A program made the position numbers and the translations under genes. DNA of 35,929 nucleotides from a virus, in the IMG/VR virus record IMGVR_UViG_3300025423_000050, positions 1 to 35,929 of that record. One strand, 5' to 3'. The notes beneath the pieces are model-generated. The model had not been told where the DNA came from and did no database searches. It was given only the letters and a program-made list of their open reading frames with translations. Positions 568 through 23,582 of this stretch are shown in pieces (the first letter of the stretch is position 1; each line of letters begins with the position of its first letter).

Positions 568-1557
568 ATGACATTGCCGATTGATATTATTAGCAGAGCC
601 TTAAAAGACATTGGCGCATTAGAAGCTGGTGAAACACCAACTCCTGAAGCTGCTCAAGATGCTTTTGATATGCTCAATGACCTTATAGACCAATGGTCTA
701 ACGAAGATATGATGGTTTATAACACCACAGAAATCATATTTCCATTAATTTCAGGGCAAACTCAATACACTATTGGGCCAAATCCAAGCACACAAAACTT
801 TGTAGGAGCTACTTTTACAGGCTCAATTACAGGCAATATTCTTACTGTTACTGGTTTAACTACAGGCGCAATAGCCCAAGGGCAAACCCTTAGTGGTTCA
901 GGAATAACCTCAGGAACTAAGATTGTTCAGTTCTTAACTGGTGCTGGCGGTCAAGTAAACGAAACAGGAACTTATAAGCTAAACATTACTTATACAAGTC
1001 CTGTAAGCTCAGAAACCATTACTGCTTATTACCAAAAGCCTTTATTTATTGACCAAGCTTATGTTCGTGTAAATACTCAGAGCAATGGTCAGGCTGTGCA
1101 AAATGGTGGTTTAGACTATCAAGTAGCTATTCTTGCCCTTGAAAACTACAACCAGATTGGTTTAAAGACTTTGAATGGCCCTTGGCCTAAAGCCCTTTAT
1201 TACAATCCTAATGCCGAATCAGGCAATATTTTTGTATGGCCTAATCCATCACAAGGTGAGATGCATATGTTCTCATCTACCATTTTTAGCAACTATACAA
1301 GTCTATATGACACTATTTCGCTTCCACAAGGCTATGCAATGGCTCTTAGATGGAATCTTGCTGAAAGACTTATGCCGATGTATGGCAAAGCTTCTCCAAC
1401 TCAAATTAGCATGATTAATGCTTATGCTGCACAATCTAAGTCAACAATTAAGCGCAACAATATGCAACCGATTGCTGCTGCTGGTTACCCTGATTCTATG
1501 TTGGTAGGCAGAGCAAAAGATGCAGGATGGATTCTAAGCGGAGGATTCTTTAGATAA
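568..1557 (+). CDS. P22 gp4-like head-tail connector (packaged-DNA stabilisation) with inserted beta module
   Basis: The 329-residue protein begins with a helical segment typical of gp4-type tail accessory factors: a [13 protein letters not shown] start, then [20 protein letters not shown] around residues 32-51, then [13 protein letters not shown]. The C-terminal half carries an [15 protein letters not shown] helix and [13 protein letters not shown]22 gp4 itself is 166 residues and plugs the portal after packaging. The extra length comes largely from a Gly/Thr-rich module at about residues 83-153 that is repeated in the next gene. The stop and the next start overlap as TAATG, and a gp10-like gene follows, as in P22. 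The role as a connector is inferred from family and order. Confidence 0.75.
814..1026 (+). repeat. Inserted beta module, copy 1 (in gp4-like protein)
   Basis: Encodes a segment starting [14 protein letters not shown] and ending near GTYKLN...VSSETITA. The pattern, FTGSI-x-G-x3-LTVT, then a GQ-x-L-x-G-x-G turn, then GTG..GTY-x-x-N and VSSE, recurs twice in the gp10-like protein downstream. It reads as a surface-exposed beta domain set into a loop of the connector. Confidence 0.7.
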
Positions 1558-3665
1558 TGGCTGACTTTGGATTTGTAGGCCCATCTTATGAAGCTCCTAG
1601 TATCTATCAAGATGCTCAGGAATGTATCAACTTTAGACCTGAAATTGACCCTTTAAAAGCTCAGGGTGAAAGAGGTGTAGTTGCGCTTTATCCAACTCCA
1701 GGGCTTACTTCCTTAGTTCAATTTGCTAATCAAGATTCTGTTCGTGGAATGCAAGCTTTATCAGGTGGCAATTATTTAATGGCGGTTTGTGGCATTTATG
1801 TCTATGTTTTAGATTCTGAATTTACACCTTATGTAGTCGGTATTCTAAATACCTCTACTGGCCCTGTCAGCATTACAGATAATGGCATTAGCGCATATAT
1901 TGTTGATGGCAATAATCGCTATACATGGCGCATAAGCCAACCTGATGCTTGTTCTTTTACTGGCTCTATTTCAGGAACAACTTTAACTGTTACCTCCATT
2001 AGAGAAGGCAGAATTATTCAAGGTCAGTCTTTGTATGGCTTAGGAACTGGTTTAGGGGTAATTATTACTAGCTCTGGCACAGGCGGTGTCGGAACTTATC
2101 AAATTAACACCTCTTTAAATTTAACTAGCAGAGCATTTAATTCTAATGCTTCAGGTGGTTCATTTAATGCTTCTATTTCAGGAAGCCAAATGACTGTGAA
2201 CTATATGTTTACAGGACAAATCTATCCAGGGCAAGCAATAGTAGGCAATGGAGTAACCCCAAATACTTTTGTAAGTGCATTAGGCACAGGAACAGTATTA
2301 AGCGGAAGCATTGCTACAGCAGGCACAGGATATGCCATAAATGATGTTGTATATGTTTTAGGCGGTGTTTATGGACAAAGCGCAGCTTACTTTACAGTAA
2401 CAGGCATAGGAGGCTCAGGTGCTGTTTCTTCGCTATCTTTAACCTATCCTGGCTCTTATACTTCTACACCATCCAATGCAGCTTCTACAAGCACTACTGG
2501 TTCAGGTTCAGGGTTAACCCTTAATCTTACTTTTGGTACAGGTTCAGGTGGAACAGGAAACTATACAGTAAGCCCTAATCAATCTGTAAGCTCAGAAACT
2601 ATGTATGCTGTAAATTTTGCAGTTATTCCAAGCACAGATGGCGCATTTCAAGGTGCTAATGTAGTAGATATTATTGATAACTATTTTATTTACAACAAGC
2701 CTAATACTCAACAATGGGCTGCTTCTAATATCCTTTCTCCAGTAACTTATGGTTTGTCTTTTGCAAGCAAATTTACTGGCCCAGATAATTTAGTGTCAAT
2801 CATTGCAAGCAATGGACAAGTCTTTTTATTAGGCGATACCACTACAGAAGTATGGTCGGATGTTGGAACTTTCCCATTTCCTTTTCAGCGCATTCCAGGA
2901 AGCTCAAGTCAGCATGGTGTGGCAGCTCAGTTTTCAGTAGCAAAACTAGGTAATTCTTTTGCTTATTTGTCTAAGAATAATCGTGGTCAAGCTGAAATTG
3001 TTCAAATGAATGGATATTTTCCACAAAGAATATCAACCCATGCTGTAGAAAATACTTTAGTTAATAAGTATATTAAAGATGCTGTTGCCTATACTTATCA
3101 ACAAGAAGGCCATGAAGTTTATGTTCTTTCTTTCCCAACCCTTGATTTGACTTGGTGCTATGACTTATCCACTCAAATGTGGCATAAGTGGTTATGGGTA
3201 GACTCCAATAATGTTTACCATCGCCATCGGTCAAATTGCCAAGCAAACTTTCAAGATATGGTTCTTGTAGGGGATTGGCAAAATGGCAATATTTATGAGT
3301 TAGACCCTAATAACTACACAGACAATGGCGGTGAAATTCGCAGATTGCGAAGATGCCCTCATTTAGTAACTGACTTGCAAAGGCAATATTTTGATGAAAT
3401 GCAAATTCAGTTTCAGCCTGGTGTAGGCTTATCTACAGGGCAAGGAAAAAACCCACAAGCAATGCTCAGATGGTCAAATGATGGCGGTTCTACTTGGTCT
3501 AATGAACATTGGGTCAGTATTGGCAAAATTGGCAAATATCAAAATCGAGCTATTTGGCGCAGATTAGGCTGGTCTAGGGATAGAATCTTTGAGGTATCGG
3601 TTTCTGACCCTATTAAGGCTGTAATTGTGTCAGCTAACCTTAAAGCTACAGAAGGGGAAAACTAA
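1557..3665 (+). CDS. P22 gp10-like packaged-DNA stabilisation protein with nested insertions
   Basis: At 702 residues this is much longer than P22 gp10 (472). The N-terminus (DFGFVGPSYEAPSIYQDAQ, then CINFRPEIDPL) and the segments GLTSLVQF, AVCGIYVYVLD, VDIIDNYFIYN, GDTTTEVWSDVG and SFAYLSKNNRGQAEIVQMNG are typical of the gp10 beta-propeller-like family that closes the portal channel after packaging. The C-terminus has the conserved tract EMQIQFQPGVG...RWSNDGGSTWS. Extra length lies at residues about 134-350, where two copies of the FTGSI module are inserted and the second is itself interrupted by another domain. The gene overlaps both neighbours as TAATG. Family assignment is strong; the purpose of the insertions is unknown. 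Confidence 0.85.
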   Translation: MADFGFVGPSYEAPSIYQDAQECINFRPEIDPLKAQGERGVVALYPTPGLTSLVQFANQDSVRGMQALSGGNYLMAVCGIYVYVLDSEFTPYVVGILNTSTGPVSITDNGISAYIVDGNNRYTWRISQPDACSFTGSISGTTLTVTSIREGRIIQGQSLYGLGTGLGVIITSSGTGGVGTYQINTSLNLTSRAFNSNASGGSFNASISGSQMTVNYMFTGQIYPGQAIVGNGVTPNTFVSALGTGTVLSGSIATAGTGYAINDVVYVLGGVYGQSAAYFTVTGIGGSGAVSSLSLTYPGSYTSTPSNAASTSTTGSGSGLTLNLTFGTGSGGTGNYTVSPNQSVSSETMYAVNFAVIPSTDGAFQGANVVDIIDNYFIYNKPNTQQWAASNILSPVTYGLSFASKFTGPDNLVSIIASNGQVFLLGDTTTEVWSDVGTFPFPFQRIPGSSSQHGVAAQFSVAKLGNSFAYLSKNNRGQAEIVQMNGYFPQRISTHAVENTLVNKYIKDAVAYTYQQEGHEVYVLSFPTLDLTWCYDLSTQMWHKWLWVDSNNVYHRHRSNCQANFQDMVLVGDWQNGNIYELDPNNYTDNGGEIRRLRRCPHLVTDLQRQYFDEMQIQFQPGVGLSTGQGKNPQAMLRWSNDGGSTWSNEHWVSIGKIGKYQNRAIWRRLGWSRDRIFEVSVSDPIKAVIVSANLKATEGEN
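1956..2141 (+). repeat. Inserted beta module, copy 2 (in gp10-like protein)
   Basis: Encodes FTGSISGTTLTVTS, then a GQSLYGLG turn, SSGTGGVGTYQIN and a final strand. It matches the module at 814-1026 in the neighbouring gene in order and spacing of its motifs. Confidence 0.65.
2163..2610 (+). repeat. Inserted beta module, copy 3, itself interrupted by a second domain
   Basis: The module starts FNASISGSQMTVN, reaches SALGTGT, and resumes only about 80 residues later at GGTGNYTVS...VSSETMYA. The intervening part (about 2295-2535) begins GSIATAGTGYAINDVVYVLGG and contains GAVSSLSLTYPGSYTSTP, a Gly/Thr-rich beta unit of a kind seen in other phage structural proteins. Short GTG runs sit at both edges of the inner insert. 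Confidence 0.6.
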
Positions 3666-13314: not shown

Positions 13315-13566
13315 TTAAAAAGGAATATCAGATTCCATGTCAGCCAAGTTATTAGTTTTGGTATCAGGTTTATCTTCAGGGACATTTAAATAACACCAAA
13401 ATGCGCCTTCTTTCATACCCAATAAAGGCAACATTTCAATTTTAGCCATAAGGTCACCTTTTTTAGTTTTGGTAACTATGCCAACAGTTTGATACCGCTT
13501 TTTTTGTTGCCCATCTTTGTCGGTATATTCAGATACAGCAGCTTTTAAATAATATTCAATTCCCAT
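13315..13566 (-). CDS. Single-stranded-DNA-binding-like protein with SSB tail
   Basis: The 83-residue protein is mostly predicted strands (MGIEYYLKAAVSEYTDKDG, YQTVGIVTKTKKGDLMAKIEMLP, GAFWCYLNV), fitting a small OB fold, and ends MESDIPF. The acidic DIPF end is the hallmark of bacterial SSB C-termini, which bind partner proteins. It overlaps the YqaJ exonuclease gene by 11 bases and the annealing protein lies just upstream, so the three form a recombination unit. The OB fold is inferred; the tail is seen directly. Confidence 0.65.
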   Translation of the reverse strand: MGIEYYLKAAVSEYTDKDGQQKKRYQTVGIVTKTKKGDLMAKIEMLPLLGMKEGAFWCYLNVPEDKPDTKTNNLADMESDIPF

Positions 13567-14206
13567 CTTTAATTCCCTTCATCAAATTTACTTCGGTTTG
13601 CACTTCATCTAAAAACTTCTTAATTTCTGCTTCCATTTCAGCAATAAAAGCCTCATCCCTATCAACTCGAACAATTAGCAACTGGCTTCGGTCAGGCATC
13701 CTGGGGTCAAAGCTTACAAAGTCGCACCATTGTCTGCCTGTGCAGGCCATCTGCGCTTGCATCTGAATTACATATTTTTGAGGCGGTCTATTAAATTTGA
13801 AATACTCCCAATGAGTTGTGCTATTAGGACACTTAATTTCCACAAGCCCCCCATTAGACACAAGACCATCAGGGCTACAACCAAACCACTTAATACTAGG
13901 ATGGTCAATGAAAGCGATTCTATCGACAAAATTATTGGTAGTGATTTCATATAAAACCCTTGCATTTCCCTCATTTTGAACACCCCATTCCATGCTTGCA
14001 TTGGTGTAAGATTCTTGAATGATGCCTGTAGTGCGCTGTAAAGCTAATTCAATAAGGTAATTCTGTCTTGATGCGGATGGCCCTGTTTTAGTCTTAGCCA
14101 ATATGTCGGCTACTCTAGAAGCTGTAACCTTGCCCAATCTAAGTTGATGCCAGGCATCTGTGCCTTGTTCAACAGCAACCCTATCTTCAGTAGTAAAAGT
14201 AGTCAT
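13556..14206 (-). CDS. YqaJ-type viral recombinase exonuclease (lambda Exo-like)
   Basis: The 216-residue protein has all the family motifs in order: WHQLRLGKVTASRVADIL (residues 19-36), the Glu in WGVQNEGNARVLYE (residues 74-87), SPDGLV with Asp113, LVEIKCP with Glu123 and Lys125, and YVIQMQAQMACTG (residues 145-157). This PD-(D/E)XK exonuclease degrades one strand at double-strand ends to leave single strands for annealing. It sits directly downstream of the DUF1071 annealing protein, as in Red-type pairs. Its start overlaps a 32-residue membrane micro-gene as ATGA. Confidence 0.9.
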   Translation of the reverse strand: MTTFTTEDRVAVEQGTDAWHQLRLGKVTASRVADILAKTKTGPSASRQNYLIELALQRTTGIIQESYTNASMEWGVQNEGNARVLYEITTNNFVDRIAFIDHPSIKWFGCSPDGLVSNGGLVEIKCPNSTTHWEYFKFNRPPQKYVIQMQAQMACTGRQWCDFVSFDPRMPDRSQLLIVRVDRDEAFIAEMEAEIKKFLDEVQTEVNLMKGIKDGN

Positions 14207-14301
14207 ATACCCCCCAATCTAATCGCTAATCTAATCATTGTCATCAAAATTACAGCAGTTATTGCAACTGTTGTAATGGCTACTTTATCGGCCCAGCTCA
14301 T
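14203..14301 (-). CDS. 32-residue membrane micro-protein
   Basis: A short frame encoding MSWADKVAITTVAITAVILM, then TMIRLAIRLGGI, a single membrane segment with basic residues after it. Its ATG overlaps the annealing-protein stop as ATGA and its stop overlaps the YqaJ start as ATGA, a perfect relay between two certain genes. That packing is the main evidence it is translated. Function unknown. Confidence 0.55.
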   Translation of the reverse strand: MSWADKVAITTVAITAVILMTMIRLAIRLGGI

Positions 14302-14846
14302 GCTTGCAATGCCATTAAAGTGCCTTTTTGAAGGTCTTTGGCACTAGCAATCTTTTCTACTGCTGTTTTGTCTTTGCTGAGAGCTTTATAAGCTGCGCCA
14401 TAGATTTCTTTAAGCTCATCCATAGTCTTAGTTCCACTAATAGCTAAAACCCATTTGTCGGCCTCTGCTGTTAAATCAAGCATTTCTTCATCAGGCAAAT
14501 CTTCACCAGCATAAATGTATAGACCAATGCCAAACAAGCTAATGCACTTAACCAAACAGCGCATCATAGCGGTATTGACATCCATTGCATTAGGGTTGGA
14601 GATGGCCTTGTTCATATTGTTAATAACAGGCATTTGGCAAGTCATAGACTTACCCATAGCGGTTACTGTGCAAAAAACCATTACTGATTCATTGAAGTAA
14701 ACAGGGTCACCAAAAGTCCAAGTGGCTGATGGGTCATTTTGTAGAAGCTGGTCTACTGCCCAAGTCCAAGAAAGGTAGGTAAATTTACCTTTTCTTTCTG
14801 TATGTTCATTGACATTGATAAGTCTTAATTCATTAAAAGTTTTCAT
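14298..14846 (-). CDS. Single-strand annealing protein, DUF1071 (Sak3/Erf-like group)
   Basis: From the ATG at 14846 (TAAGGAG lies just upstream; a GTG three bases earlier is an alternative) the product has 182 residues. The pattern LRLINVNEHTERKGKFTYLSW, then AVDQLL, CTVTAMGKSMTCQMPV, and AMMRCLVKCISLFGIGLYIYAGEDLP is characteristic of DUF1071 annealing proteins. They coat single strands and pair complementary ends, here fed by the YqaJ exonuclease. C-terminal residues are helical and end KGTLMALQA. Confidence 0.85.
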   Translation of the reverse strand: MKTFNELRLINVNEHTERKGKFTYLSWTWAVDQLLQNDPSATWTFGDPVYFNESVMVFCTVTAMGKSMTCQMPVINNMNKAISNPNAMDVNTAMMRCLVKCISLFGIGLYIYAGEDLPDEEMLDLTAEADKWVLAISGTKTMDELKEIYGAAYKALSKDKTAVEKIASAKDLQKGTLMALQA

Positions 14847-14856
14847 CACTTACTCC

Positions 14857-17706: not shown

Positions 17707-17986
17707 AAAACAAAAGGATGAATATGCTCGCCTGGCGAGATTGGGCTGCATATTGTGCAGGCAACATGGAATTGAAACAACCGATACACCTACAGAAATC
17801 CACCATGTCAGAAGATTTGGGGGAAAGCGAGATACTGCTCCTGCAATCCCCCTCTGCGCTTACCACCATCGCCTTGGAGATACCAGTTATCACTCGCTTG
17901 GGGCTAAAAAGTTCACTTCTTATTGGGGGTTTTCACCAGAGCAGCTCATTGAGAAAACTAGGGCATTACTAGATGACTTACTATAA
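17696..17986 (+). CDS. HNH-type nuclease, Ref (RecA-dependent nuclease) family
   Basis: The 96-residue protein matches the nuclease domain of phage P1 Ref: LGCILCRQHG with Cys18 and Cys21, TEIHHVRR with His36-His37, APAIPLCAYHHRLG with Cys54, His57 and His58, and GAKKFTSYWG. Cysteines and histidines bind zinc and the HH motif is catalytic. Ref cuts DNA at RecA-coated displacement loops. Only the core domain is present, as in many phages where it lies near replication genes. It overlaps the VRR-NUC gene by 14 bases. Confidence 0.8.
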   Translation: MTTKKQKDEYARLARLGCILCRQHGIETTDTPTEIHHVRRFGGKRDTAPAIPLCAYHHRLGDTSYHSLGAKKFTSYWGFSPEQLIEKTRALLDDLL

Positions 17987-18260
17987 AAAGCGAGTTGATG
18001 AAAACCAAAAGCAACTTGTGCATACTTTTATTGCGCTTGGAGCTTCTGTGCTTAATTTATCAACTGTTGGTCGTGGCTGTCCTGATTTACTCATTGGGTA
18101 TAAAGGTAAGTCTGTATTGGTAGAAATAAAGCGAGATTCCAAAGCAACTTTTACTGATCCACAAGTCAAATTCATGCAAGAATGGAGGGGAGGGGCAGTA
18201 AGCCGAATTGATTCGGTAGATGCTGCTATTCGCCTTATAAAAATGCTCGATATGGACTAA
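17973..18260 (+). CDS. VRR-NUC domain nuclease
   Basis: This 95-residue protein is a minimal VRR-NUC unit: CPDLLIGYKGKSVLVEIKRD with Asp38, Glu51 and Lys53 as the PD-(D/E)XK metal site, followed by DPQVKFMQEW (Gln64) and a C-terminal helix (DAAIRLIKML). Stand-alone phage VRR-NUC proteins are structure-specific nucleases, probably resolving branched DNA. It overlaps the Ref-type gene and ends 2 bases before the large polyvalent gene. Confidence 0.85.
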   Translation: MTYYKKRVDENQKQLVHTFIALGASVLNLSTVGRGCPDLLIGYKGKSVLVEIKRDSKATFTDPQVKFMQEWRGGAVSRIDSVDAAIRLIKMLDMD

Positions 18261-18262
18261 TC

Positions 18263-20269
18263 ATGGCTCTAGCAGATGAAATTCAAAAACAATTTGATAA
18301 TAAAAAATTAAAAAATCAAAGAGAAACTTTGTCTACAAAATTAGACAAATATTGGAAAGAATGGCCTGAAAACTTTGAAAAAAATCAAAGAGCTATGGAT
18401 AAAACTATGGCTGGATTGTATAAAACTGACTTTTTAGGCAAGCCAAATCCAAACTATTACCCAGAAGCAATGCAAGAATTTACTCAAAATTATTTGCCAA
18501 ACTTTATGGGAGCAACAGCAATATTTCATGGAACAAGCAAAGAAGCAGCTAAACAAATTGAAAAAGCAGGTTTTGATATTGCAAAGTCTGCTGATGGAAG
18601 TATTTGGTTTACTACCAATCCTAATATTGGAGAAGTAGCAGCTACAGGCAAGGGTGCTGTTGTAAGAAGGTTAATTGATGAAGGAAAAGTAAAACTTGCA
18701 TCTAGAGATGAGGCAGACAAATATTTTACAGATCAGCTAATTAGCCAAGGGTATCAAGGTGTAAAACATACTGATATGACAGGAGGAACTTATTATCAGA
18801 TATTTAATCCAGAAAATTTAGAAAAAGGATATAAAGATGAAGGACAATTTAGACGAATATCAGGATTACCTCAGAGTAATGAAAAAGCATGGAATCAAGC
18901 CACTTCTGGACAAGAAAAGCTTCAAACAAGCTTTGCAAATAGAAAACTTAGAGAGTCACAAGGAAGCGGTGCATTCAATGGTCAGGAACAAAATAAAGCC
19001 ATCCAAATAGCCAAAGAACATAACCCAGACTTTGACATTGAAAAAATCAAAGCCATGCCAGGCTCATCCCTTTTAAAACAACATCCTATTGCCAGGGCTT
19101 ATGAAACATTATCTAAGGATGATGTAAGTCCAGCTTTAAAAGATGCCATTTATCAGGATTACAAAGCAAAGCATCCTGAACTATTAGCAAAGCATGATAT
19201 TCAAAATTATGATGATTTGGTTCATAAATCCTATGGGGCTTTGCGCCAAGAAGTAAACCAGCAATTTGATAATTTAGTGAATAAAGGGGTTAATTTTTCT
19301 TTTCATGGTGGCAATGCCAATTATGCTAATTCTAGAGAAATGCTAGATGATGCCCTTAATAAAAACCATATGTATGTTTTTAGAGGTGGTGAGGAGCATC
19401 CTTTTCTCAATGAATTTGACCCTTACTATGGCTTAAATACTAATGAAAAATTTAGGGCAGTTCATGACTATATTGGTCATGGCACTACAGGCTCAACCTT
19501 TGGCAGAAAAGGTGAAGAATTGGCTTATGGAGCTCACAAAGAAACTTTAAGCCCATTGGCTCAAATAGCTGCTGCTTCTGAAACCAGAGGTCAAAACAGC
19601 TTTGTAAATTATTCTGGAATCAATGCAGACCTTGAAAAAGAAATGGCCTTGATGAGGGTAGAAAAGACAGCAGCCGAAAAAATGGGCCAAGATACCTCAG
19701 AAATGGACAGAAAGCTTAGGGAATTAGGCGGTCAATGGGAATATGCTAAACAAACAGGCCTGGCATTACCCCCTGATATGCTTGAATTAGATTACAGAGG
19801 TGGTGTTCCAAATTATATGAAAGAACATATAGTTCCTGAAAATGGTCAAACTATTGAAGGATTTCATTGGAGCAATAGCCCAAATTTAAGCCAGACTGAT
19901 GTTAAAAAGTATGGTTTTGGTATAAGAGGCCAGGAAGCTGAAAGACTAAGAGCCCCTGGAGCTGTTAAAGACAGGACTCATTTTTACTTAAACCCAGAGA
20001 TGAAAGAGCCTGGTCTTGGCCCAAATCAATATAAATCGAATATTGAAAATTCTTATGATGTAAGAAAAGACCCAGATAATTTATTAAAAATGGCTGATAC
20101 ATTTAATCGAGATAAATTTAATATTCTTGATGCAGAAACTAAAGCTAATGATTGGGAAAGAATGATTAAAGAAGCTGGTTATTCTGGCTATCATGATTCA
20201 GCTCAAAATATGGCAATTTCTTTTAAAAATCAACCAGTATTTAAAGTGCTTGACATGGGTAACCAATAA
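18263..20269 (+). CDS. Large multi-domain protein: two ADP-ribosyltransferase-like ends around an HDxxGH/ETRGQN domain
   Basis: The 668-residue product reads as three parts. Residues about 84-190 resemble a compact ADP-ribosyltransferase fold: FHGTS (His89), GSIWFTTNP (112-120), then QGYQGVKHTDMTG and YQIFNPENL. Residues about 340-510 hold a conserved phage domain of unknown role: YVFRGGEEHPFLNEFDPYYG, RAVHDYIGHG (His401, Asp402, His406), GEELAYGAH, and ASETRGQNSFVNY, which looks metal-binding. Residues about 530-665 repeat the first pattern: GFHWSNSP, THFYLNP, EAGYSGYHDSA, and ISFKNQPVFKV. Polyvalent injected phage proteins combine such domains. It follows the early nuclease genes at 2 bases and is followed by a hairpin terminator. 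Enzyme activity is inferred, not shown. Confidence 0.6.
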   Translation: MALADEIQKQFDNKKLKNQRETLSTKLDKYWKEWPENFEKNQRAMDKTMAGLYKTDFLGKPNPNYYPEAMQEFTQNYLPNFMGATAIFHGTSKEAAKQIEKAGFDIAKSADGSIWFTTNPNIGEVAATGKGAVVRRLIDEGKVKLASRDEADKYFTDQLISQGYQGVKHTDMTGGTYYQIFNPENLEKGYKDEGQFRRISGLPQSNEKAWNQATSGQEKLQTSFANRKLRESQGSGAFNGQEQNKAIQIAKEHNPDFDIEKIKAMPGSSLLKQHPIARAYETLSKDDVSPALKDAIYQDYKAKHPELLAKHDIQNYDDLVHKSYGALRQEVNQQFDNLVNKGVNFSFHGGNANYANSREMLDDALNKNHMYVFRGGEEHPFLNEFDPYYGLNTNEKFRAVHDYIGHGTTGSTFGRKGEELAYGAHKETLSPLAQIAAASETRGQNSFVNYSGINADLEKEMALMRVEKTAAEKMGQDTSEMDRKLRELGGQWEYAKQTGLALPPDMLELDYRGGVPNYMKEHIVPENGQTIEGFHWSNSPNLSQTDVKKYGFGIRGQEAERLRAPGAVKDRTHFYLNPEMKEPGLGPNQYKSNIENSYDVRKDPDNLLKMADTFNRDKFNILDAETKANDWERMIKEAGYSGYHDSAQNMAISFKNQPVFKVLDMGNQ

Positions 20270-20652: not shown

Positions 20653-20886
20653 GTGGCTAACAAAGAGCATAATGACACTTGCAATTTGTGTCGATTTTTT
20701 TCTTTTGGGGAAAGAATGGGAGTCTGCAAAAGATACCCAATTTCACAAAACAAAGCCAATGAAGATTGGTGTGGGGAATGGCAACCCATTAAAAACCATG
20801 TTATTGAAGCCATAACAACTGGATTGACTGTTACTTTTACTGAAGAACAACCAAAAAAGAAACCAGGAAGGCCTAGAAAATCATGA
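20653..20886 (+). CDS. Four-cysteine small protein (probable zinc site)
   Basis: The 77-residue protein starts at GTG 20653 with CGGAGAAACT just before it. CNLCRFF, GVCKRYP and DWCGEWQP give four cysteines in the pattern CxxC...C...C, a known small phage/bacterial family that probably binds one zinc. A basic tail (PKKKPGRPRKS) resembles an AT-hook (GRPRK) and may contact AT-rich DNA. It overlaps the GroES gene as ATGA. Role unknown. Confidence 0.7.
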   Translation: MANKEHNDTCNLCRFFSFGERMGVCKRYPISQNKANEDWCGEWQPIKNHVIEAITTGLTVTFTEEQPKKKPGRPRKS

Positions 20887-21197
20887 AACTCAAGCCATTA
20901 GCAGACAAAATTGTAGTCAAACCTGATGTTAGAGAGCTTTCTAGCATCATTATTGTTGATAACAAAGAAGTCGAAAACATGGGTACAGTCATTGCTGTTG
21001 GCCCTGGTAAAAAGCTTTCAGGTGGTCGCAGAGAAGATATGCCTATTGAAGTTGGAGCAAGAATCCGCTTTGGCACTATGAATGATGACCCAGGCGAGGA
21101 ATATCTCAAATACTTCCCTTACTATGAAGATGGGGTTAAGTATCTGGTGATGAGTTGGCAGGATGTTTGTTTTGAGGAAGCCCAAAATGTCGGATGA
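20883..21197 (+). CDS. groES-like: GroES-like co-chaperonin (Cpn10)
   Basis: The 104-residue protein follows GroES from end to end: LKPLADKIVVKPDV at the start, SSIIIVDN in place of the mobile-loop tripeptide (Ile-Ile-Ile here, Ile-Val-Leu in E. coli), MGTVIAVGPGKKL, and IEVGARIRFG, with a C-terminal YLVMSWQDVCF strand. GroES caps GroEL and sets cage size. T4 gp31 is a phage precedent that helps fold the coat protein. No GroEL is seen, so it would work with the host chaperonin. It is in the operon just upstream of the head genes. Confidence 0.85.
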   Translation: MKLKPLADKIVVKPDVRELSSIIIVDNKEVENMGTVIAVGPGKKLSGGRREDMPIEVGARIRFGTMNDDPGEEYLKYFPYYEDGVKYLVMSWQDVCFEEAQNVG

Positions 21198-22312: not shown

Positions 22313-23582
22313 TACATCAGGCTTTATTTGGCCTCAATTCCCTAAAAAGCTTAAATGCTTAGTTGAACCAGAACATAGTCGGTACAGAATATTACATGGC
22401 GGTAGAGGGGGTGGAAAATCGCACTCTGTAGCCCGAATGTTGCTATGCAAGGGAGTTCTCAAGACTATTCGAGTCTTATGTGCTCGTGAGTTCCAGACCT
22501 CAATCAAGGATTCTGTTCATAAGCTCCTTGTAGACCAAATCTATGACCTAAAGCTAGAAGCCCATTATGAGGTGACTCAAAGCACTATTAGGGGCAAGAA
22601 TGGCACAGAGTTTATCTTTGCTGGCATTAAGAACAATATCAATGGCCTAAAGTCTATCGAGGGCATAGATTACTGTTGGTGTGAGGAAGCTAATAACATC
22701 TCAAAATTAAGCTGGGATATTCTGATTCCTACCATCCGTAAGGAAAACTCCGAGATTTGGGTTACTTTTAACCCTGAGTTGCCTACCGATGAAACCTATA
22801 AGCGGTTCATTTTGAATCCTCCTGATAATGCTGTAGTGCAAAAAGTTAACTGGAATGACAACCCTTGGTTTCCTGCTGTCCTAGACCTAGAGAGGCAATC
22901 CCTAATGAATAGGGACTTTGAGGCTTATCAGAATGTCTGGGAAGGCTTTACTCGGTCTACCATTGATGGAGCAGTCTTTGCTAAAGAGATGCAAAGGGCA
23001 GAAGCAGACAACAGAATATGCAATGTCCCTTATGACCCTATAAAGCCTGTAATGGCAGTATTTGATATTGGATGGGCCGATGCTACTGCTATATGGTTTG
23101 TTCAGTTCATAGGCATGGAAACCAGGCTTATTCGATACTATGAAACCACTCAGACAACTATGAGTGAGATTCTTGGAAAGATGCAGACCTTTGGTTATGT
23201 CTATGACACCTTATATCTGCCCCATGATGCTAGAAACAAAACAATCGCTAGTAATGGCAGAAGTATTGAAGAAATAGTCAGAGCTGCAGGATTTAATGTC
23301 AGAATCATTGAAAGAGTGCCTATTGTTGACTCCATCAATGCTGCTAGAACCATATTTAATTCATGCTATTTTGACAAGAATAATACCTCTGCAGGGCTAG
23401 ATTGTTTAAGACACTACAGATATGATGTAGACCCAGACACTAAAGCATTTAGTCAAAAGCCTGTCCATGACCAGTATTCGCATGGAGCAGATGCTTTCAG
23501 ATACATAGGGCTTATGATTCAAGAAAAGAAAGTAGTCAAAAGAAAGCCCATGAATTATGATGTTACAAGCTGGATGAGCTAA
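22296..23582 (+). CDS. terL: Terminase large subunit (PBSX/Terminase_3 type)
   Basis: The preferred start is ATG 22296 (GTGGA six bases upstream; ATG 22290 is possible), giving 428 residues. The ATPase domain has Walker A GGRGGGKS (residues 35-42), followed by TIRVLCAREFQTSI, and the Walker B region IDYCWCEEA (Glu130, Glu131). VTFNPELPTDETYKRF lies near residue 160. The RNase-H-like nuclease shows AVFDIGWADA (Asp257), LPHDARNK (Asp311) and SHGADAFRY (Asp399). It pumps DNA into the procapsid and cuts it. A headful mechanism is usual with a P22-type portal but is not shown by this sequence. Confidence 0.95.
   Translation: MSSQIDTSGFIWPQFPKKLKCLVEPEHSRYRILHGGRGGGKSHSVARMLLCKGVLKTIRVLCAREFQTSIKDSVHKLLVDQIYDLKLEAHYEVTQSTIRGKNGTEFIFAGIKNNINGLKSIEGIDYCWCEEANNISKLSWDILIPTIRKENSEIWVTFNPELPTDETYKRFILNPPDNAVVQKVNWNDNPWFPAVLDLERQSLMNRDFEAYQNVWEGFTRSTIDGAVFAKEMQRAEADNRICNVPYDPIKPVMAVFDIGWADATAIWFVQFIGMETRLIRYYETTQTTMSEILGKMQTFGYVYDTLYLPHDARNKTIASNGRSIEEIVRAAGFNVRIIERVPIVDSINAARTIFNSCYFDKNNTSAGLDCLRHYRYDVDPDTKAFSQKPVHDQYSHGADAFRYIGLMIQEKKVVKRKPMNYDVTSWMS

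Follow-up and report, generated by a model that had tools for sequence, protein, structure and literature searches.

A polyvalent phage protein joining two ADP-ribosyltransferase-like ends to a putative metalloenzyme domain with relatives in bacteria

Introduction

The stretch of DNA considered here (the window, 35,929 nucleotides) is a 35.9-kb tailed-phage fragment bearing terminase, portal, scaffold, major head protein, ejection-type and lysis genes. One of its products, a protein of 668 residues, raises the question of what is accomplished by placing a central block of conserved His and Glu residues between two ends that resemble ADP-ribosyltransferases (ARTs). The answer favoured here, to which we give an even chance, is that the protein is a virion-delivered effector whose two ART-like ends are joined to a metalloenzyme possibly acting on SAM-type metabolites.

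Modular organization of the protein and its locus

The reading frame is open, begins with ATG, and contains every motif quoted in the initial annotation (Table 1). These are HGT (residues 89-91), IWFTTNP (114-120) and GYQG (163-166) at the N-terminal end; RAVHDYIGHG (398-407), GEELAYGAH (417-425) and ETRGQN (440-445) in the center; and HWS (535-537), FYLNP (574-578), GYSG (639-642) and QPVF (657-660) at the C-terminal end. The protein recurs in full length, at 100% over residues 1-668, in five other IMG/VR contigs and in part (residues 570-668) in a sixth, L007. A further relative, L005, is 75% identical to residues 184-668 only and bears a different N-terminus, and the protein is therefore modular. 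An AlphaFold2 model built with 75 related sequences has pLDDT values of about 33-66 up to residue 240 and mostly above 90 over the rest of the chain.

Three linked domains are thus present in this one phage protein, namely an ART-like domain, a metalloenzyme-like domain (hereafter M) and a second ART-like domain (hereafter C), the last two being directly fused in most viral relatives of the set at hand. The polyvalent architecture first proposed for the protein is borne out, with its N-terminal (N) domain identified as ART-PolyVal-like by way of relatives. The common pattern described for the two ends fared less evenly: the motifs are present, but the ends share no sequence similarity (BLASTP E 0.18; profile-profile E 0.14, probability 0.4), and the pattern would reflect a shared fold type at most.

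Table 1. Features of the 668-residue protein and of neighbouring genes in the window
Feature	Position	Strand	Description
Small nuclease-like gene directly upstream	17973..18260	+	phrog_93 endonuclease, E 1.7e-10
Polyvalent protein, whole open reading frame	18263..20269	+	668 aa
N-terminal ART-PolyVal-like domain	18515..18829	+	residues about 85-189
Central domain M (phrog_3170, putative metalloenzyme)	18980..19777	+	residues about 240-505
Motif 1, AVHDYIGH	19457..19480	+	residues 399-406; candidate ligands H401 and H406, with D402; invariant in 75 sequences
Motif 2, GEELAYGAH	19511..19537	+	residues 417-425; candidates E418 and H425; invariant in 75 sequences
Motif 3, ETRGQN	19580..19597	+	residues 440-445; candidate E440, with Q444 and N445; invariant or nearly so in 75 sequences
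C-terminal ART-fold domain	19820..20266	+	residues about 520-668
GroES-like gene between the 668-aa frame and the terminase	20883..21197	+	phrog_3188, E 3.5e-11
Large terminase	22377..23582	+	

The gene encoding M and C lies within the packaging and head region, near the terminase or portal gene, both in the window and in many relatives (TerL was found in 27 relative loci), and the order involving the GroES-like gene is found again in L022-L024. This placement agrees with that published for polyvalent proteins and packaged phage ARTs (PMC5512222, PMC9503650). Like the phage polyvalent proteins (PMC5512222), the protein combines several enzyme-like domains, at least two of them distinct and of effector type, includes ART domains and is encoded among head and packaging genes in its relatives, one of which (L021) additionally has a DUF6782 metallopeptidase, together with a match to LPD23 that stays below threshold. 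It differs from them in its length of only 668 residues and in that M matches no LPD domain of Pfam.

The terminal domains

Relatives of the N domain are more scattered. They are encoded at 21 viral loci, standing alone at some (open frames of 146 and 198 aa) and forming part of proteins of about 1,000-1,500 aa at others. The ART-PolyVal family (PF18760) is matched by 10 of 12 aligned relatives (best E 2.3e-11), which supports, through relatives, the ART-type kinship supposed for this end, whereas the window copy itself does not match the Pfam profile. Among other proteins with M, L098 also carries ART-PolyVal (E 3.6e-15), and L101 falls just below the cut-off. The model of the N domain, with a pLDDT of about 40-66, was built from an alignment containing no N homologues. 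The usual residue at the third ART motif position is Glu; in the N domain H89 is kept and no Glu precedes IFNP.

The C domain is modelled with pLDDT values mostly of 90-98 and likely adopts an ART fold, as had been proposed for this end. Foldseek places the anti-CRISPR ADP-ribosyltransferase AcrIF11 (6kyf) first (E 0.12, probability 0.97), and VIA-align returns AcrIF11 (Z 6.9), NatT (6.6), MbcT (6.5), PARP15 (4.8) and KptA (4.4); PARP10 is matched as well, and nearly all structural matches are ART folds with moderate scores. ART catalytic triads take the form H-Y-E, R-S-E or a variant thereof. In the C domain H535, S537, R571 and Y575 are conserved, and the last strand holds no conserved Glu among the aligned relatives. 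Both ends thus lack a conserved Glu at the third position, and therefore either may be inactive; both are best regarded as candidate ARTs. The C domain shares the fold class of AcrIF11 but is only 12% identical to it over the aligned residues; AcrIF11 uses D115 (PMC12421852), for which an equivalent in the C domain is not established.

A chain of the cyanophage A4 pre-ejectosome (PDB 9k3a_B, residues 1421-1607) also resembles the modelled C domain (window 19820-20266; Z 5.7), hinting that ART-fold domains of such kind may be ejected.

The central domain

Residues 317-453 match phrog_3170, a PHROG family without assigned function (E 9.6e-18). The central block, presented in the initial annotation as part of the best candidate for an undescribed activity, had thus been catalogued before; its appearance as a metal-binding enzyme without an assigned reaction is retained, and to the PHROG family are now added bacterial members, SAM-type and defence contexts, domain fusions and a candidate active site. 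Family profile scans found no Pfam or NCBIfam family for M, and searches by sequence for relatives of solved structure, run with the whole protein as well as with profiles of M, C, N and DUF3293 (an accompanying domain of some M copies, described below), found none that is credible. As M belongs to no known sequence family, it is not a recognised structural protein, the outcome that had been named as contrary to an enzymatic reading.

Across 75 diverse homologues, Y324, Q334, N394, R398, H401, D402 and H406 are invariant, as are F413, G417, E418, H425, E440 and Q444. The pattern HDxxxH-x10-GE-x6-H-x14-ETxxQ holds in 74 of the 75 with almost constant spacing, and the central motifs therefore exceed chance. 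M is modelled in the window copy with pLDDT values mostly above 93, and its five or six candidate ligands, spread over consecutive helices, point to a single bound metal or a pair. M is accordingly described here as a putative metalloenzyme, its presumed metal binding being read from the sequence.

The domain is widespread. It is matched in 202 phage records and four actinobacterial plasmids, in no fewer than 583 stretches of viral contigs and in 106 stretches from genomes of bacteria or archaea. This distribution bears on the quite unlikely alternative that the protein is mainly a structural component of the virion, in which M and the ART-fold ends would be binding modules without catalysis. 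Such a role would accord with the missing third-position Glu, with the pre-ejectosome match of the C domain and with the annotation of a Rhodococcus E3 homologue as 'structural protein', but the M motif is strictly conserved from phages through to bacterial chromosomes, as is typical of catalysis, and the stand-alone bacterial copies of M are not parts of virions.

Two other sets of assignments were set aside. Homologues are annotated as 'glycosylase', 'lysin', 'RelA/SpoT' or 'beta/gamma crystallin', and none of these names is backed for M by a profile match. The HD-hydrolase motif is of the HDxGH type; M has one residue more between the His residues, as in hydroxylases, and this reading was dropped.

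Resemblance to phenylalanine hydroxylase

Since the C domain and long helices filled the list of structural matches to the whole protein, a model was made of M by itself, from a compact bacterial copy of 214 aa (pLDDT 92.7). Foldseek returned 13 weak hits, the first four of which are bacterial phenylalanine hydroxylases (PAHs) from two species, with E values of 0.66-1.4, probabilities of 0.1 or less and a TM of about 0.2. VIA-align gave no PAH; its only matches (Z 2.0-3.0) are IrrE (Z 3.0), selecase (Z 2.6) and a regulator.

The motif H-[DE]-x-x-G-H is common to M and bacterial PAH, with HDVFGH identical in PAHs and copies of M, and the invariant H-x4-H and distal Glu of M (H401, H406, E440) match, as a pattern, the iron ligands of the hydroxylases. 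Profiles of M and of 12 assembled bacterial hydroxylase sequences were compared with hhalign and scored 30.8 (p 0.0017; probability 14-20%, or 16% in the scored run), against 17.8 for the reversed profile; neither 100 column shuffles (highest score 22.0) nor 65 unrelated real families (highest score 23.3) reached this value. The alignment covers a short part, with HDVFGH at its middle. The idea of a hydroxylase arose from the H-[DE]-x-x-G-H motif before the Foldseek search, and the agreement between the two is thus partly independent, but weak. Taken at this level, the comparison supports a similar metal site in M and PAH, with common descent not implied. The overall fold match is insignificant, the invariant GE-x6-H (E418/H425) of M has no apparent counterpart in the PAH sequences compared, and neither the window copy nor 74 relatives match Biopterin_H (PF00351).

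It could be argued from this resemblance that M belongs with the mononuclear iron oxygenases, as a distant relation of the aromatic amino-acid hydroxylases, and that its substrate would be an amino-acid side chain or an aromatic metabolite rather than SAM. The identical HDVFGH with its H(i), H(i+5) and distal Glu, the leading Foldseek ranks of the PAHs and a profile score above all shuffles and all 65 decoy families speak for it, but the scores are individually insignificant, the family match and a PAH counterpart of E418 and H425 are wanting, and no pterin-gene context is seen around M genes; this reading is considered unlikely. A divergent zincin-like metallopeptidase, which would process the polyvalent protein to its functional units or cleave host proteins, is judged highly unlikely. 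IrrE and selecase, which both have metallopeptidase folds, do head the VIA-align matches of M, and processing of polyvalent proteins by metallopeptidases has been proposed (PMC5512222), but these Z values do not rise above noise, the H-x4-H of M differs from HExxH, the 66%-identical relative L021 has a separate DUF6782 metallopeptidase, and the operon partners of bacterial M are metabolic.

Bacterial contexts of the central domain

The preferred view of M as an enzyme acting on a SAM-type metabolite draws on these bacterial neighbours. In nine loci of Bacteroidota, Alpha- and Gammaproteobacteria (Aureispira, Aquimarina, Chryseobacterium, Ruegeria, Pelagibius and BD1-7 bacteria), the stand-alone M gene adjoins a gene for an AdoHcyase-like NAD-binding protein (PF00670; the three scanned give E values from 1.6e-10 to 4e-7). 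DUF3293 adjoins M or is fused to it in all but one of the nine. A gene for M also occurs in L147 near a homocysteine methyltransferase, a methyltransferase and an AdoHcyase. M is fused to DUF3293 in L158 and L160, and the large polyvalent proteins L100 and L101 likewise contain both domains. The three-gene operon of AdoHcyase-like, M and DUF3293 genes is itself rare, occurs in distant phyla and varies in gene order (L110:4727-7063, L107:4757-7074, L134:5863-8224).

DUF3293, which was not mentioned in the literature searched, provides a further link to this metabolism. The L100 copy also matches S-AdoMet_lyase (E 3.5e-6, 27.4 of 28 bits), two Microbacterium-type copies give very weak signals for the same family (E 0.009 and 0.04), and DUF3293 has an invariant Glu and Gln; SAM and SAM-AMP lyases (PF23780) employ a catalytic Glu/Gln pair (PMC7877911, PMC12255297). 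The likeness is limited by the lack of a meaningful hhalign alignment between DUF3293 and T3 SAMase and by the absence of DUF3293 from the window. From these operons and fusions, a SAM/SAH-type substrate for M may be guessed by association, a proposal that is tentative and somewhat doubtful. A SAM-lyase-like DUF3293 domain is also seen in a 3,694-aa 'structural' protein of the Flavobacterium elemo phages (L238:3044-14128), in which no M was found.

A second context is that of the short stand-alone actinobacterial copies. An HsdM-like gene adjoins M in 24 of 26 such loci, which also contain a Ser/Thr kinase (22), a UvrD-like helicase (18) and Cas3 (18), and the three loci checked all bear CRISPR-typical repeats with 61-nt spacing. 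The cassette of HsdM-like, M, kinase and UvrD-like helicase genes beside Cas3 and CRISPR-like arrays (L137:3398-12502 and matching loci among L119-L176) is possibly an unnamed defence cluster. Of 151 genomes of the L137 family, 21 contain M; in two other groups, query genomes included, it was found in one of 395 genomes and in two of 385. Being patchy among the sampled genomes, M is therefore an accessory gene; the operon evidence rests on few loci because stand-alone bacterial copies are rare.

These islands lend some weight to the view that the 668-residue protein is made inside the infected cell, for phage exclusion or as a toxin, and is not injected. Toxins often carry ART domains, and MbcT and NatT are structural matches of the C domain. 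The location of many relatives near terminase or portal genes, as for packaged effectors (PMC9503650), and the fusion of M within very large phage proteins speak against this view, which is held to be decidedly improbable.

Proposed mode of action

In the preferred reading of a delivered effector, the protein, encoded beside head genes, would probably be packaged and delivered with the phage DNA. Once inside the host, its ART-fold ends would target macromolecules of the cell with the use of NAD+, or else bind a ligand of this type. The likely metal ligands of M are H401, H406 and E440, in a PAH-like 2-His-1-Glu arrangement to which the invariant E418 and H425 are added, and M would have a small metabolite as its substrate. 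A SAM/SAH-type molecule is the guess with the best support, and action on it would blunt SAM-dependent host defences.

A bolder version of this proposal, regarded as improbable, is that M founds a new superfamily of metalloenzymes with a hydroxylase-like 2-His-1-Glu site that alter or consume SAM-type metabolites. Phages would inject the enzyme as a fusion with ART-fold domains and thereby disable SAM-dependent defence; bacteria would keep it in the operon with AdoHcyase-like and DUF3293 genes and in the CRISPR-linked HsdM cassette. The interest of M lies in its breadth: hundreds of phage contigs and roughly one hundred genomes of bacteria and archaea encode this enzyme-like domain with its candidate ligands strictly kept, and it has neither name, structure nor reaction. 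Its bacterial neighbours point to a testable SAM/SAH-type pathway and to defence islands. Were phages indeed to inject M, a new class of virion-borne metabolic counter-defence would be at hand, and the small stand-alone bacterial copies make its biochemistry easily approached.

Additional observations

In locus L143 (5557-6525) M is divided between two neighbouring open frames, which may reflect a pseudogene or a frameshift. Elsewhere in the window, a RecE-like exonuclease and a Sak-like annealing protein form a recombination pair on the minus strand (13556-14849), and two adjacent genes (568-3665) match the same phrogs (21413 and 38233), suggesting a repeated tail-fibre-like domain.
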